From Chloroflexota bacterium (GTDB lineage: Bacteria; Chloroflexota; Anaerolineae; UBA2200), in contig JACIWW010000026.1 of the NCBI GenBank assembly GCA_014360905.1, forward strand, positions 1 through 41,104: a stretch of DNA of 41,104 nucleotides. The letters run 5' to 3'. The notes below the pieces were generated by a model that was given only the letters and a program-made list of their open reading frames with translations, was not told the DNA's origin and did no database searches. The position numbers and the translations under genes are program-made. Positions within the stretch are counted from its first letter, which is position 1. Every line of letters begins with the position of its first letter. Of this stretch, positions 6,600-16,723 are shown in pieces.

Positions 6600-7223
6600 T
6601 CATAATTTGGCTTCTACGTCCTGCAGAATCTTTTCCTTCAGTTCTGCTTTACCCTCTAAGAGCGCATTCAGCCGCGCGCGTTCCTGCTGCACAAACGCTT
6701 CGTCTTTGATACTACCCAGGTTGATCAGCACGTTGAGTGCAGCAGCGCGCAGCGCTGCTTCAGCCATCAACGCTCCTACGCCCACATCGCTGACGGCACG
6801 CACATTGCCTTTTTCTGCGCTTTCGGGACAGAGGCTCAGGATCTCAACGCAGACTTCTGCCAGCTCCATCGGCACGGCAGTGGCAGCCTTCAACGCCTTT
6901 TGGATGGCTGCGTTGCGCGTTGTCTTCTCCTCTTCCGTATCACGGGGCATTTTGTAGGCACGTGATACCTCGGTATACGCAGCTACATCGCTCTCCAATA
7001 ACTCCAGGCATTTGTGGCGGAGTTCCTCGGAACGCTTCAGGATACGATGAATGTCATCCTGGACATGGGCATAGTCCTTCTTACCTACAGTCAGGTTAGC
7101 TACCATACTCACCAACGCCGCTCCAATAGCTGCGGCTAGTGCTGCCGCGCTGCCCCCGCCGGGGGCTGGAGCCGAACTGGCAAGTTCATCAAGAAAGACA
7201 CGAACGGATTTTTCGCTGAGCAT
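6600..7223 (-). CDS. fchA: Methenyltetrahydrofolate cyclohydrolase (FTCD cyclodeaminase-domain family)
   Basis: A 207-residue stand-alone cyclodeaminase/cyclohydrolase domain (FTCD_C type), all-alpha. The signature APAPGGGSAAALAAAIGAAL lies at about residues 18-37 and the DVGVGALMAEAAL helix near 145. In acetogens the single-domain form is the methenyl-THF cyclohydrolase FchA; fused to a formiminotransferase domain it deaminates formimino-THF. No formiminotransferase is in the window, and metF/metV lie about 6 kb away, so the cyclohydrolase role in the folate methyl branch is favoured but inferred. AAGGAGG sits 5 bases before the ATG. It lies 55 bases after the FecR-domain gene and 38 bases before the AIM24 gene. 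Confidence 0.85.
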   Translation of the reverse strand: MLSEKSVRVFLDELASSAPAPGGGSAAALAAAIGAALVSMVANLTVGKKDYAHVQDDIHRILKRSEELRHKCLELLESDVAAYTEVSRAYKMPRDTEEEKTTRNAAIQKALKAATAVPMELAEVCVEILSLCPESAEKGNVRAVSDVGVGALMAEAALRAAALNVLINLGSIKDEAFVQQERARLNALLEGKAELKEKILQDVEAKL

Positions 7224-12256: not shown

Positions 12257-12366
12257 GGCGGCTTCACAGGCCTTTCCTTTCGCATTTCGTGGACAAGTAT
12301 AATGGCCATGGCTGGTTAGATACTGTAGTATAGGTGTAAGAGGTGCATATTTTCGGTGAAATTTTG

Positions 12367-12380
12367 GTGCAAAAATGCAC
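12367..12380. promoter_or_regulatory. Candidate operator, GTGCA-AAAA-TGCAC
   Basis: A perfect 5-base inverted repeat with an AAAA centre lies between the ATP-grasp gene (-) and the DUF4416 gene (+), 27 bases upstream of the latter's -35. An almost identical motif lies beside the promoter of the GltD/MvhD-fusion gene at 16825-16838. The shared site suggests one regulator, but its identity is unknown. Confidence 0.4.
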
Positions 12381-12407
12381 TCGCTATTTCCTATCTATCA
12401 TTTATTG

Positions 12408-12436
12408 TTGACCTTCCGCTTCTTTCAACTTATAAT
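12408..12436 (+). promoter_or_regulatory. Near-consensus promoter of the DUF4416 gene
   Basis: TTGACC (12408-12413), a 17-base spacer, and TATAAT (12431-12436) match the vegetative sigma consensus at 11 of 12 positions. Transcription should begin near 12443, about 18 bases before the ATG. This supports the downstream ATG at 12461 over any start further upstream. Confidence 0.85.
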
Positions 12437-12460
12437 GGCAAACGTACAGGTGGGACAGAA

Positions 12461-12997
12461 ATGGGCAAGATCAAGGAACCGCCGCCAGTCAAATTGATTG
12501 CCAGTATATTTACTGCAGATGAGACTCTGCTGGCTGTAGCCAGAGGGGCTCTGGTCAACCGCTTTGGGCCTATTGACTACCAGAGCGAATTATTGCCCTT
12601 CAACCACACTTCCTACTACGCCCGCGAGTTTGGCGAAGGATTGGTGCGCCAGATCATCGCTTTCACCGAACTAATCCCGCCAGATCGATTGGCGGAGATC
12701 AAACGTATCACCAACGATCTGGAAATGACCTGGGTCGTGGATGGGCGACGCCGTGTGAATGTGGATCCTGGCTATGTCTCATTGGGCAAGCTCGTGCTGG
12801 CTACCACAAAAGACTACTCACATCGTATCTATCTGGGGCAGGGCATTTATGCGGAAGTAACCCTGCAGTACCGGCACGGTGCTTTCCAGGCCTGGGAGTG
12901 GACCTATCCAGATTATGCCAGCCAACGCTATATCCAGATTTTCACAGAGATTCGGCGCATCTATGCCGCACAATTGCGCCAAGCTAAGAGCTCATGA
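12461..12997 (+). CDS. DUF4416 family protein
   Basis: This 178-residue cytoplasmic protein resembles the DUF4416 family. The characteristic opening MGKIKEPPPVKLIASIFTAD is followed by LVNRFGPIDYQSELLPFNHT and a C-terminal AFQAWEWTYPDY stretch. The family has no known biochemical function. The start is set at 12461 because a near-consensus promoter lies just upstream and would leave the earlier ATG (12356) outside the transcript. An AGGTGG site lies about 9 bases before it. The gene is alone on its strand, ends in a hairpin shared with the metF 3' end, and is divergent from the ATP-grasp ligase. Confidence 0.8.
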   Translation: MGKIKEPPPVKLIASIFTADETLLAVARGALVNRFGPIDYQSELLPFNHTSYYAREFGEGLVRQIIAFTELIPPDRLAEIKRITNDLEMTWVVDGRRRVNVDPGYVSLGKLVLATTKDYSHRIYLGQGIYAEVTLQYRHGAFQAWEWTYPDYASQRYIQIFTEIRRIYAAQLRQAKSS

Positions 12998-13016: not shown

Positions 13017-13049
13017 TTGTAGGTCGTGGGGTTACGATCCTACAATTTT
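13017..13049 (+). terminator. Rho-independent terminator after the DUF4416 gene, overlapping the metF 3' end
   Basis: Arms TTGTAGG-TCGT (13017-13027) and ACG-A-TCCTACAA (13034-13045) form an 11-pair stem with one bulged A and a GGGGTT loop, followed by TTTT. It stops the plus-strand transcript. Its right arm contains the metF stop codon and the far side may also fold in the metF mRNA. Confidence 0.6.
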
Positions 13050-13963
13050 GGCCGTGGCAGCAGTCCCGCTAGCTCCAGAATCTGCGGCACAGCCTCTTCC
13101 CATTCGATGGCCATGACATGCACACCAGCGACGCCTGGAATTTCGCGTATCTCAGAGATGATGTCGGCACACTGCTTGATACCTTCTTGGCGCACTTGAT
13201 CCTTCGGCACGCCCTTCAGACGGGCTACAATCTCTTCAGGCACATCCATGCCAGGTACGCTGGTCTGCATATAGCGTGCCATACCAACGCTTTTGATAGG
13301 GCCTACCCCCGCTAAAATGTAGCACTTTTCATGCAAGCCCAGATCACAGACTCGTTTCATGAATTCTCTGAACTTGGCCACGTTGTAAATGAGCTGTGTC
13401 TGGATAAAGTCGGCTCCTGCTGCTATTTTCTTGGCCAATCGGTAGGGTCGGTATTCAAATGGATCGGCAAAGGGATTTTCTGCTGCGCCGATGAAGAAGC
13501 GGGGCTCGACATCCATTTCTTCACCGCAGGCGAACTTTTTCTCATCGCGCATGATTTTGACTAGGTGGATCAACTGTATGGAATCCAGATCGTACACTCC
13601 ACGCGCCGTGGGATGGTTGCCGAAGCGCTGATGGTCGCCCGTTAAGCAAAGCAGGTTCTTCACGCCATGGGCAGCAGCCCCCAACAAATCCGATTGAATC
13701 GCCAAACGGTTACGATCGCGGCAAGTCATTTGGATGGTAGGTTCCAGCCCCAATTGCAGGAGCATGATGCCTACCGCAATGCTCGACATGCGCACAATGG
13801 CCGTCTGGTTATCGGTAATGTTGACCGCATCCACATAACCCTTGAGCAAGCCGGCTTTGTGGCGGATCACTTCTGGGTTGGCACTCTTGGGAGGGCCTAA
13901 TTCACCCGTAGCGGCAAAGTAGCCGCTAGTGAGCACTTTCTCGAGATTGCTGCCAACTTTCAT
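13040..13963 (-). CDS. metF: Methylenetetrahydrofolate reductase
   Basis: A 307-residue FAD-dependent TIM-barrel MetF that reduces 5,10-methylene-THF to 5-methyl-THF. Recognisable elements are TGELGPPKSANPE at the start, DAVNITDNQ, IQMTCRDRNRLAIQSDLL, LLCLTGDHQ, and GADFIQTQLIYN with the family's Q-T-Q. It overlaps metV by four bases (ATGA) and follows a large flavoprotein with an MvhD domain, as in acetogens where MetF and MetV form a complex with Hdr/Mvh-like subunits. Electrons are therefore likely to arrive through partner proteins rather than directly from NADH, which is an inference from context. No methionine synthase is in the window. Confidence 0.93.
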   Translation of the reverse strand: MKVGSNLEKVLTSGYFAATGELGPPKSANPEVIRHKAGLLKGYVDAVNITDNQTAIVRMSSIAVGIMLLQLGLEPTIQMTCRDRNRLAIQSDLLGAAAHGVKNLLCLTGDHQRFGNHPTARGVYDLDSIQLIHLVKIMRDEKKFACGEEMDVEPRFFIGAAENPFADPFEYRPYRLAKKIAAGADFIQTQLIYNVAKFREFMKRVCDLGLHEKCYILAGVGPIKSVGMARYMQTSVPGMDVPEEIVARLKGVPKDQVRQEGIKQCADIISEIREIPGVAGVHVMAIEWEEAVPQILELAGLLPRPKL

Positions 13964-14628
13964 AGTTTCAGATCCTCCCTAACAATCTTGCGCGGGCCAC
14001 CGTCATAATCCTTCGACCAGTCCTTATACGGTATCAGGGTGGCCAGGCGGTCAAGTTGTCCCAATCGTGCTAGGCGATCATAGATGAGCTGCCAGGCGCA
14101 GTCAAGCTCTGAATTGACCTCGCACTTGCCATTCTGTGAACCACCACAGGGGCCATTGAGCAGATTCTTGGCACAGCGTGCGATGGGGCACACACCACCC
14201 GTTAGACCTAAGATGCAGTCACCACAGGCACGGCAACGTTCAACCAGGACACCATGCTCTACAGCCATGCCCAGGAAGGTGGTGTTCACACCGGGCAGGA
14301 TCACCTTATCGGGATAGCGCTCTGCCAGGGCTTGCACGCCAATGCCACAAGCGAGAGAAAGGACGGCATCGGCTTGCTGAATCTGGTCAGCGACGGCGTC
14401 AATAAACTCCCATTCGCATTGGCGCTGCACGGTTGCTTCGGCAAAGATCTTGTCCTGACCCTCCATGGCTGAAGCAATACGCAGACTGGAAGCCAGCAAT
14501 CCAACTTCTTTCTCGCCACCAGCGAAACTGATAGTAACGCATGTGCCGCAGCCGAGGATCAGGATCTTGTGGTACGAAGCAATCAATGCCTTGATCTCGG
14601 CGATGGGTTTTTGTTGTGCTTTGATCAT
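13960..14628 (-). CDS. metV: MetV, methylenetetrahydrofolate reductase C-terminal domain protein
   Basis: A 222-residue MetV-type protein (methylene-THF reductase C-terminal family). It has an N-terminal CGTC pair (C27, C30) and a later cysteine-rich region (CRACGDC, GVCPIARCAKNLLNGPCGG, GKCEVN) that likely binds an Fe-S cluster and zinc. In acetogens MetV partners MetF and links it to electron-donating subunits. It starts at 14628 with GAGAGG six bases upstream, one base after the upstream gene's stop. It overlaps metF by four bases, so the three genes form one tight operon. Confidence 0.88.
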   Translation of the reverse strand: MIKAQQKPIAEIKALIASYHKILILGCGTCVTISFAGGEKEVGLLASSLRIASAMEGQDKIFAEATVQRQCEWEFIDAVADQIQQADAVLSLACGIGVQALAERYPDKVILPGVNTTFLGMAVEHGVLVERCRACGDCILGLTGGVCPIARCAKNLLNGPCGGSQNGKCEVNSELDCAWQLIYDRLARLGQLDRLATLIPYKDWSKDYDGGPRKIVREDLKL

Positions 14629-14629
14629 A

Positions 14630-16723
14630 TTAGCCTCTCCTCACAGGGCTGGGCCCCAGTTCTTTGACCTTCGTTGCCAGCGTGTCGACAATGTCCACCA
14701 TGTTGGCGCATTGGGCTGGGGACATATGGAACATTTCCAACCGTGCGCTACCCAGGCCAATTTCGTCCAGCAATGCTTTCACATAGGCCACACGCTTTGC
14801 AGCATGTACATTGCCTTTGTCATTGTGGCATTCACCCTCCAGGCAGCCCGCCACAAACACTCCATCAGCGCCAAACTCGAAAGCTTTCACTAAGTACAAT
14901 GCATCCACTTTCCCCGTGCACAGCACGTCAATGATTTTGACGTTCGTGGGCAAGCTGGTTTTGACAATGTTAGCATCCTCACCCGCATAGGCGCAGTAAC
15001 GGCAGGCAAAGCCCACAATCGCTGGCGCACCATTGTACCTTGCACTATATACCGCATCGCGGATTTCTCTGATCATGTCTTCATCAGAATAGAGCTTCAT
15101 CGAAATAGCTTTTGCTGGGCACTCTGTTGCGCAGATGCCACAGGCCTGACACTGATCTACCGGCACATTGGCGGTGCCCCGTGCCAGTACAGGCACTTCG
15201 TAGGGACAGACGCGGACACAAGTGAGGCAGGCAATGCACTTGTTCTCCTCCACTCGCGCGCCTGCACCACAGGTAAGGCAGCGATGAGCAGCGCGTATGG
15301 CCTGCGTTTCGGTATAGCCTAGGTATACTTCATCAAAGGTAAATTTGCGCTGCCCAGCATCTAGTATGGGCATCCCTTCGCGCTTGAGGTGGCGGATATG
15401 CGAGATGGTCTTTTCCTGTAGATCGTTCAGTTTCTGTGGTTCAGGAGGTTGCACGGAAGCTGGATCAAGGCCACGGAGGTAGGCATCTATGGAGCGGGCG
15501 GCGCGATGGCCAGCAGCGATGGCATCAATGATGAAGCCCACGCCAGTGACTGCATCCCCACCAGCAAAGACGCCTGGTCTGGTAGTAGCCAAAGTGACTG
15601 GGTTGACCTGAATGGTGCGCCGTGGTGTCTGGGCAATGGAACCATCTTGCGGCAGAAAGCTGAGGTCAGGCCCTTGGCCAATCGCAAATATGACCAAGTC
15701 CGCAGGAAGGGCGTGTTCCGTTTCTGGGAATTCATCCATGTCTGGCGCACCAGTTGGCAAAAAGCCGCGGAAATTCACTTTCACGCAACGCACACCCTTG
15801 ACCTTGCCATTCTCGGCAACGATCTCCTTGAACGTGCGATCGTGGAACATCTGCACACCCTCTTCCAACGCTTCCTCGATTTCCCAGGGATGTGCCGGCT
15901 GTGTCGTGCAGCTTTCCAGGCAAGTCATAGAGACTTCGGCTGCGCCCAGGCGCAATGCAGTCCGTGCTACATCTATGGCTACATTGCCTCCACCCAGCAC
16001 CAATACATGGCGCCCACTGAGGTCAATTTTCTCGCCCAAAGCTACTCGCCGCAGAAACTCGGTATTCAACCAGACATCGGGTAGGTCCGCGTTGGGAATG
16101 CGTAGCTTGCGGCCGACATGTGATCCCACGGCGAGGAACACTGCCTTGTAGCCGTCTGAGAGCAAGGCGTCTATATCTGTAATGCGCTGGTTAGTGACAA
16201 ACTCAACGCCCAGCTCTTTGAGTGGTGCTACCTCAAGATCGATGGTCTCGCGCGGCAAGCGATACAGGGGAATGCCGTATTGCATCATGCCGCCAAGTTT
16301 TGGGTATGCTTCAAAGACGGTTACCTTGTAGCCCATGCGTGCCAGGTCATGGGCAGCAGTCAGGCCACCTGGACCTGAGCCTACGATCGCTACCTTTTCC
16401 TCCTTTGGCTCCGCGACAGTCAGCCCTGGTGCATGACCTTTGCTCAGGTCATGTTGCTCCGTAGCAAAGCGCTTCAACGCACAGATGGCGACAGGCTCGT
16501 CTACGTCACCGCGTCTGCATTCGGTCTCACATGGATGAGCGCATACCTTGCCACAAATGTAAGGCAAGGGATTAGGTTCGCGCGCCAACCGATAGGCCTC
16601 TTCAAAATCCCCGCGCGCGATGGCGTGGATATAGCCCCGTACGTCGGTGTGTGCTGGACAGGCAGCCTGGCATGGTGGAAGCGGTTCTACAAGCGAGATG
16701 GGTTGGTCGCTCTTGTTGCTCAT
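14630..16723 (-). CDS. GltD-like flavoprotein fused to two ferredoxin motifs and an MvhD domain
   Basis: A 697-residue three-part protein. Residues 1-90 form the Fe-S domain of glutamate-synthase-small-subunit-type proteins (C18, C22, C57, C61, C65, C69). Residues about 110-420 are the FAD and NAD(P) domains (GSGPGG 115-120, GGGNVAIDVA, GVFAGGDAVTG). Two [4Fe-4S] motifs follow at about 480-535 (CIACLTCVRVCP, CQACGICATECP). The last 130 residues are an MvhD-type [2Fe-2S] domain (GFACRYCAY, VLCTGKVD, VAGCLEGECH). MvhD normally joins hydrogenase or formate dehydrogenase to heterodisulfide reductase. Here it is fused to a NAD(P)-binding flavoprotein and placed ahead of metV-metF, so it probably feeds electrons to methylene-THF reductase, perhaps with flavin-based bifurcation. 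It is a cytoplasmic protein. Confidence 0.85.
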   Translation of the reverse strand: MSNKSDQPISLVEPLPPCQAACPAHTDVRGYIHAIARGDFEEAYRLAREPNPLPYICGKVCAHPCETECRRGDVDEPVAICALKRFATEQHDLSKGHAPGLTVAEPKEEKVAIVGSGPGGLTAAHDLARMGYKVTVFEAYPKLGGMMQYGIPLYRLPRETIDLEVAPLKELGVEFVTNQRITDIDALLSDGYKAVFLAVGSHVGRKLRIPNADLPDVWLNTEFLRRVALGEKIDLSGRHVLVLGGGNVAIDVARTALRLGAAEVSMTCLESCTTQPAHPWEIEEALEEGVQMFHDRTFKEIVAENGKVKGVRCVKVNFRGFLPTGAPDMDEFPETEHALPADLVIFAIGQGPDLSFLPQDGSIAQTPRRTIQVNPVTLATTRPGVFAGGDAVTGVGFIIDAIAAGHRAARSIDAYLRGLDPASVQPPEPQKLNDLQEKTISHIRHLKREGMPILDAGQRKFTFDEVYLGYTETQAIRAAHRCLTCGAGARVEENKCIACLTCVRVCPYEVPVLARGTANVPVDQCQACGICATECPAKAISMKLYSDEDMIREIRDAVYSARYNGAPAIVGFACRYCAYAGEDANIVKTSLPTNVKIIDVLCTGKVDALYLVKAFEFGADGVFVAGCLEGECHNDKGNVHAAKRVAYVKALLDEIGLGSARLEMFHMSPAQCANMVDIVDTLATKVKELGPSPVRRG

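Follow-up and report, generated by a model that had tools for sequence, protein, structure and literature searches.

The 41,104-nucleotide stretch of DNA analysed here (hereafter the window), contig C26 of the 2.83-Mb, 96% complete genome (G000) of an uncultured, Anaerolineae-type Chloroflexota bacterium, carries an operon that likely encodes a compact, three-subunit MetVF-type methylene-THF reductase, in which a single fused electron-input protein would deliver electrons from NADH to MetVF along a linear path without bifurcation. The operon opens with a 697-residue fusion of GltD, ferredoxin and MvhD domains, which is separated from metV by one base (TAA-T-ATG), and metV in turn overlaps metF by four bases (ATGA), an arrangement that the initial annotation had described and that open reading frames and Pfam searches confirm (Table 1). 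The adjoining metV (PF12225) and metF (PF02219) place the predicted enzyme among the MetVF-type methylene-THF reductases. Upstream of the fusion by ~260 bases lies mltG on the same strand, and a DUF4416 gene (window 12356-12997) is convergent with metF and is kept as a neighbour in relatives from the same family (L001, L003, L058).

Table 1. Features of the fusion-metV-metF operon and its surroundings, in window coordinates
Feature	Position	Strand	Basis
GltD-ferredoxin-MvhD fusion, 697 aa (putative electron-input subunit)	14630..16723	-	Pfam/NCBIfam; kept in 13 other loci
GltD-type module, residues 16-405 (Fer4_20 Fe-S, FAD + NAD(P) Rossmann folds)	15509..16678	-	Pfam, alignments
RCLxCG pair + two ferredoxin-type [4Fe-4S] motifs, residues 482-542	15098..15280	-	Pfam, motifs
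MvhD/FlpD [2Fe-2S] domain, residues 569-690	14654..15019	-	Pfam, alignment
metV, MTHFR Fe-S/zinc subunit, 222 aa (PF12225, 1.8e-38)	13960..14628	-	Pfam
metF, methylene-THF reductase catalytic subunit, 307 aa (PF02219, 4.8e-40)	13040..13963	-	Pfam
FTCD_C-type cyclodeaminase/cyclohydrolase-like gene	6600..7223	-	folate C1 neighbour, association only

Pfam assigns to the fusion a Fer4_20 domain (residues 16-91), Pyr_redox_2 (110-405; 3.9e-29), a Fer4 dicluster (about 490-542) and FlpD/MvhD (569-690; 4e-36). In NCBIfam, PRK12771, a model of an NAD(P)-binding protein, comes closest over residues 9-543, and the C-terminal end of HdrA2 is matched by residues 488-692; we therefore interpret the fusion as a GltD module followed by the ferredoxin-MvhD tail of an HdrA2-like protein, the HdrA flavin core being absent. 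Both of the [4Fe-4S] motifs noted in the initial annotation are present as ferredoxin-type motifs (C496/499/502/506 and C525/528/531/535), but that inventory was incomplete, since the GltD module has likely cluster ligands of its own, namely C18, C22, C61, C65, C69, K84 and C482/C485, as in StnC. Together with the two ferredoxin-type motifs, these ligands lead us to predict about four [4Fe-4S] clusters, in addition to one [2Fe-2S] cluster and one FAD. Thirteen other fusions have the same layout at 41-93% identity with invariant motif cysteines, which argues that the layout did not arise by chance, and across the 14 aligned sequences the GltD-module ligands, R155 and the MvhD/FlpD cysteines C574, C602, C627 and C632 are all invariant. 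The AlphaFold model of the fusion is of moderate quality (pLDDT 76), with residues 484-545 poorly modelled, and we therefore claim no cluster distances; the folds most similar to it are those of the GltD subunits of StnABC and NfnABC, with which the GltD module also aligns best, NfnB being next.

In the mechanism that we favour, NADH would reduce the FAD of the GltD module, from which electrons would move one by one through the two [4Fe-4S] clusters of that module and the two ferredoxin-type [4Fe-4S] clusters to the [2Fe-2S] cluster of MvhD, and from there through the clusters of MetV to the flavin of MetF, which would reduce methylene-THF to methyl-THF for the Wood-Ljungdahl pathway. We infer that the three proteins form a complex with specificity for NADH and with electrons flowing in this direction. 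The single fusion chain would do the work that falls to HdrA, HdrBC and MvhD in the four-protein Hdr-type (type IV) complex of relatives, with no second acceptor, and would function like the NADH-dependent RnfC2-MetVF (type III) enzyme. Reduction of methylene-THF by NADH is exergonic (about -320 to -200 mV). The type III enzyme of Acetobacterium woodii is NADH-driven and non-bifurcating and operates without ferredoxin, which demonstrates that a MetVF of this kind works (PMC8760232). The operon probably encodes a simplified form, driven directly by NADH, of a step that is central to CO2 fixation into acetate; one point against this reading is that NADH use without bifurcation gives up free energy that Hdr types may conserve.

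Several known systems share parts of this design. The Hdr-type MetVF enzymes of Moorella thermoacetica and Sporomusa ovata, and the hdrABC-mvhD-metVF clusters of marine Anaerolineae (PMC9430772, PMC5736913), likewise combine MetV, MetF, MvhD and ferredoxin-type clusters; M. thermoacetica HdrA carries a GltD domain, as the fusion does, and the MvhD expected of this type is found here as the fused FlpD domain. Unlike these enzymes, the fusion lacks the TrxR-like flavin core of HdrA and has a single FAD module (GltD), HdrB and HdrC are missing, and GltD, ferredoxin and MvhD lie on one chain. As in RnfC2-MetVF of A. woodii (PMC8760232), one subunit that oxidises NADH, here by prediction, is added to MetVF, yet in our case the NADH module is GltD-MvhD and Pfam recognises no RnfC-like subunit among the operon proteins. 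Type III HdrA with an inserted GltD (PMC12054007) also joins GltD to HdrA-like Fe-S parts, but retains the HdrA core that the fusion lacks. Nearest to the fusion in sequence and fold are StnC of StnABC and the large subunit of NfnABC (8oh5, 9bov, 9n5u; PMC10482914), which have the same cysteines, a lysine near the proximal cluster and an arginine at the FAD, although the fusion has neither the NuoG-like domain of StnC nor StnAB partners. The predicted enzyme is best called a compact GltD-MvhD type, beside the four MetVF types listed in PMC8760232. A literature search that covered few subscription journals returned no paper describing this fusion, and GltD appears in PMC10327494 in Stn-like complexes only.

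We mapped domains in 117 MetV neighbourhoods from Chloroflexota; loci were labelled by means of BLAST and a motif pattern, and some of them overlap, such that all counts are approximate. An Hdr-type, Moorella-like appearance was seen at 88 of the 117 loci, often cut by contig ends; these include MvhD, a ~1500-residue GltD-HdrA protein in 54 and HdrBC (double CCG motif) in 62. The fusion occurs without HdrBC at 12 loci and, whole or in shortened form, together with HdrBC at two, and the partner was not recognised at another 12. A NuoF-GltD label applies to the remaining three, one of which (L181) looks like a truncated GltD-HdrA; at the other two (L230:5062-9739 and L228, from two other Chloroflexota), a NuoF-GltD fusion of about 1030 residues directly precedes metV-metF as another compact NAD(P)H input module.

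Among named relatives, Chloroflexota MAGs, of which two carry the label Anaerolineales, are closest to the window's genome. It encodes FTHFS and acetyl-CoA synthase, and one stretch of contig C2 carries a Prismane/CO dehydrogenase-family protein and CdhD-type corrinoid-protein subunits. No HdrB-type CCG domain was found in this genome, in a search that was positive in 12 of 14 control genomes, nor in its genus-mate G082; domain mapping around the locus showed no HdrB/HdrC (CCG) within 8.5 kb, and the genome has no GltD frame longer than 1200 residues. The proposal that the fusion replaces the Hdr subunits is thus well supported, both by the fusion-for-Hdr pattern at MetV loci and by the lack of HdrB-type CCG proteins in the genome. 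Elsewhere in the same genome, on contig C25 (L054:7294-17162), a possible aldehyde ferredoxin oxidoreductase is followed by a cluster of FlpD/ferredoxin proteins, MvhD and sulfhydrogenase-like genes, in which the 620-residue FlpD protein has no flavin domain.

One scan of genome contigs returned only three close copies, and our survey of sampled Chloroflexota recovered full-length single-chain fusions in five genomes of the window's own family, in G017, G006 and G022, and in other classes (G551, G566 and G421). The domain order was recovered beside metFV in other genomes: 13 of 16 fusions neighbour metV, across six families of the phylum, with one more a shortened form beside metVF, one at a contig end (G022 C488) and one orphan. 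MetV follows the fusion directly or, on G017 C6, after tusA and thiF, where the order is fusion-tusA-thiF-metV-metF-FTCD_C-folD-fhs-CODH. The shortened GltD-ferredoxin-MvhD fusion (G545, L222:6524-8158) has no nucleotide-binding Rossmann fold. An intermediate arrangement occurs in G551 (L280:3186-11003), where HdrA, MvhD, the fusion, MetV and HdrBC share one cluster; the orphan (G421, L278:8938-11103) comes from a genome in which no MetV was found. As these two cases show, the link of the fusion to MetVF and to Hdr loss is not strict, and CCG proteins are present elsewhere in some fusion-bearing genomes.

Bifurcation, which the initial annotation had raised as a possibility, would mean that NADH electrons are split, at the FAD of GltD or at a flavin pair formed with MetF, between methylene-THF and ferredoxin, the latter reached through the exposed [4Fe-4S] domain, so that energy would be conserved in the absence of HdrA. 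Ferredoxin could dock at the ferredoxin-like domain, the GltD fold bifurcates in NfnB and Hdr-type relatives have been proposed to bifurcate (PMC9430772, PMC5736913); moreover, no Rnf/Nqr membrane subunit was found in the window's genome, which would make another coupling site useful. We nonetheless consider this reading unlikely, because there is no HdrA flavin core and Lys84 is of the StnC type. Counted along the alignment, K84 and R155 correspond to K170 and R239 of StnC, and Lys84 aligns with the glutamate of NfnB (4ylf and 5jca; LKRF versus LERF). Cryo-EM of StnC identified its FAD as non-bifurcating, next to a cluster held by three cysteines and Lys170, where NfnB has a glutamate (PMC10482914). 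The operon also lacks an NfnA-type partner with a second FAD. Given that K84, R155 and the cysteines are invariant among the fusions, this analogy suggests that the module is an NAD(P)H entrance working one way.

We think it similarly improbable that MvhD docks a separate donor (a hydrogenase, formate dehydrogenase or Hdr-like protein encoded elsewhere), with GltD serving as a side entrance or exit, for example between donor, NAD(H) and MetVF. MvhD normally joins hydrogenase or formate dehydrogenase to HdrA (PMC6085437), other FlpD/Fe-S proteins are encoded on C25 and the G421 fusion is an orphan. Yet no HdrB was found in the genome and no hydrogenase or formate dehydrogenase genes were recognised beside the fusions examined, the setting that would have spoken against a MetFV role as first proposed. 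That orphan would also fit a fusion that is an NAD(P)H oxidoreductase unrelated to metVF and next to it by coincidence, and the association with MetVF is genomic, which counts against our mechanism as well. However, the one-base spacing to metV, and the fact that 13 of the 16 copies adjoin metV in several families and with different MetVF lineages, make such a coincidence very hard to credit.

Returning to the NADH-driven reading, an NAD(P)H linkage, as initially suggested, is supported by the GltD module, whose nucleotide motif (C268-L269-E270) lies where the second strand of the nucleotide fold ends. At this position, the usual 2'-phosphate site, all solved NfnB, StnC and NfnABC sequences that we aligned have Tyr-Arg-Arg; StnC, for example, has this NADPH-type YRR motif. 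The window fusion instead has Cys-Leu-Glu, a motif that it shares with the other CLE-type fusions and with roughly half of the GltD domains of Hdr type. A paralogous fusion-metV-metF operon on contig C5 of the same genome (L053:8634-12290) encodes proteins with 43%, 55% and 42% identity to the window's fusion, MetV and MetF, respectively, and its fusion has Tyr-Arg-Arg. In folds of this kind, the difference predicts NADH as the donor for the C26 fusion and NADPH for the C5 fusion. Operons of the C5 type also occur in G082, G017 and G022; the C5 operon has a GAF/PAS histidine kinase upstream and response-regulator-like genes on its flanks. The ATP balance in acetogenesis depends on the electron donor of methylene-THF reduction, a question of long standing; among the known enzymes, those with MetVF alone have unclear donors, and the others need Hdr complexes that are hard to purify. 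With only three proteins and its nucleotide module built in, the natural system described here is compact enough to be reconstituted, and with NADH-like and NADPH-like copies in one genome the donor question becomes directly testable.

Phylogenies suggest how this module spread. G006 MetVF is sister to G075 MetVF of the same family (support 100/99), and G006 has the fusion where G075 has GltD-HdrA and HdrBC instead. The MetVF partners of the own-family, G017 and G006 fusions do not form one clade (AU p 6e-5), with groups for the tree tests partly chosen after the first trees were seen. By contrast, the GltD domains of CLE-type fusions form one clade (98/100) in a tree without the longest branches, whose bootstrap had not fully settled. 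MetVF operons thus appear to have exchanged the input module among themselves, since related GltD domains sit on unrelated MetVF lineages. YRR-type fusions are placed elsewhere in both GltD trees and form another clade without the longest branches, and the module appears to have arisen at least twice. A three-fold origin of the GltD domain was set aside: an 83-row tree puts the fusions in three places, but removing the longest branches leaves two clades, and we therefore claim only two origins. Forcing the GltD domains of the own-family, G006, G017 and G022 fusions into one clade without G566 and G551 gave a p-AU of 0.03, which is not meaningful because those two nest inside that clade. We regard it as an even proposition that these operons constitute a fifth MetVF reductase class, defined by a portable single-chain NAD(P)H module that replaces Hdr on different lineages, with one genome holding NADH- and NADPH-specific enzymes and choosing the donor of its methyl branch. 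Among the GltD domains closest to that of the window is one from G017 (L239:3632-17255), which lies in an HdrCB-HdrA-GltD-HdrA-MvhD cluster followed by FrhB-like and possible fumarate reductase genes.
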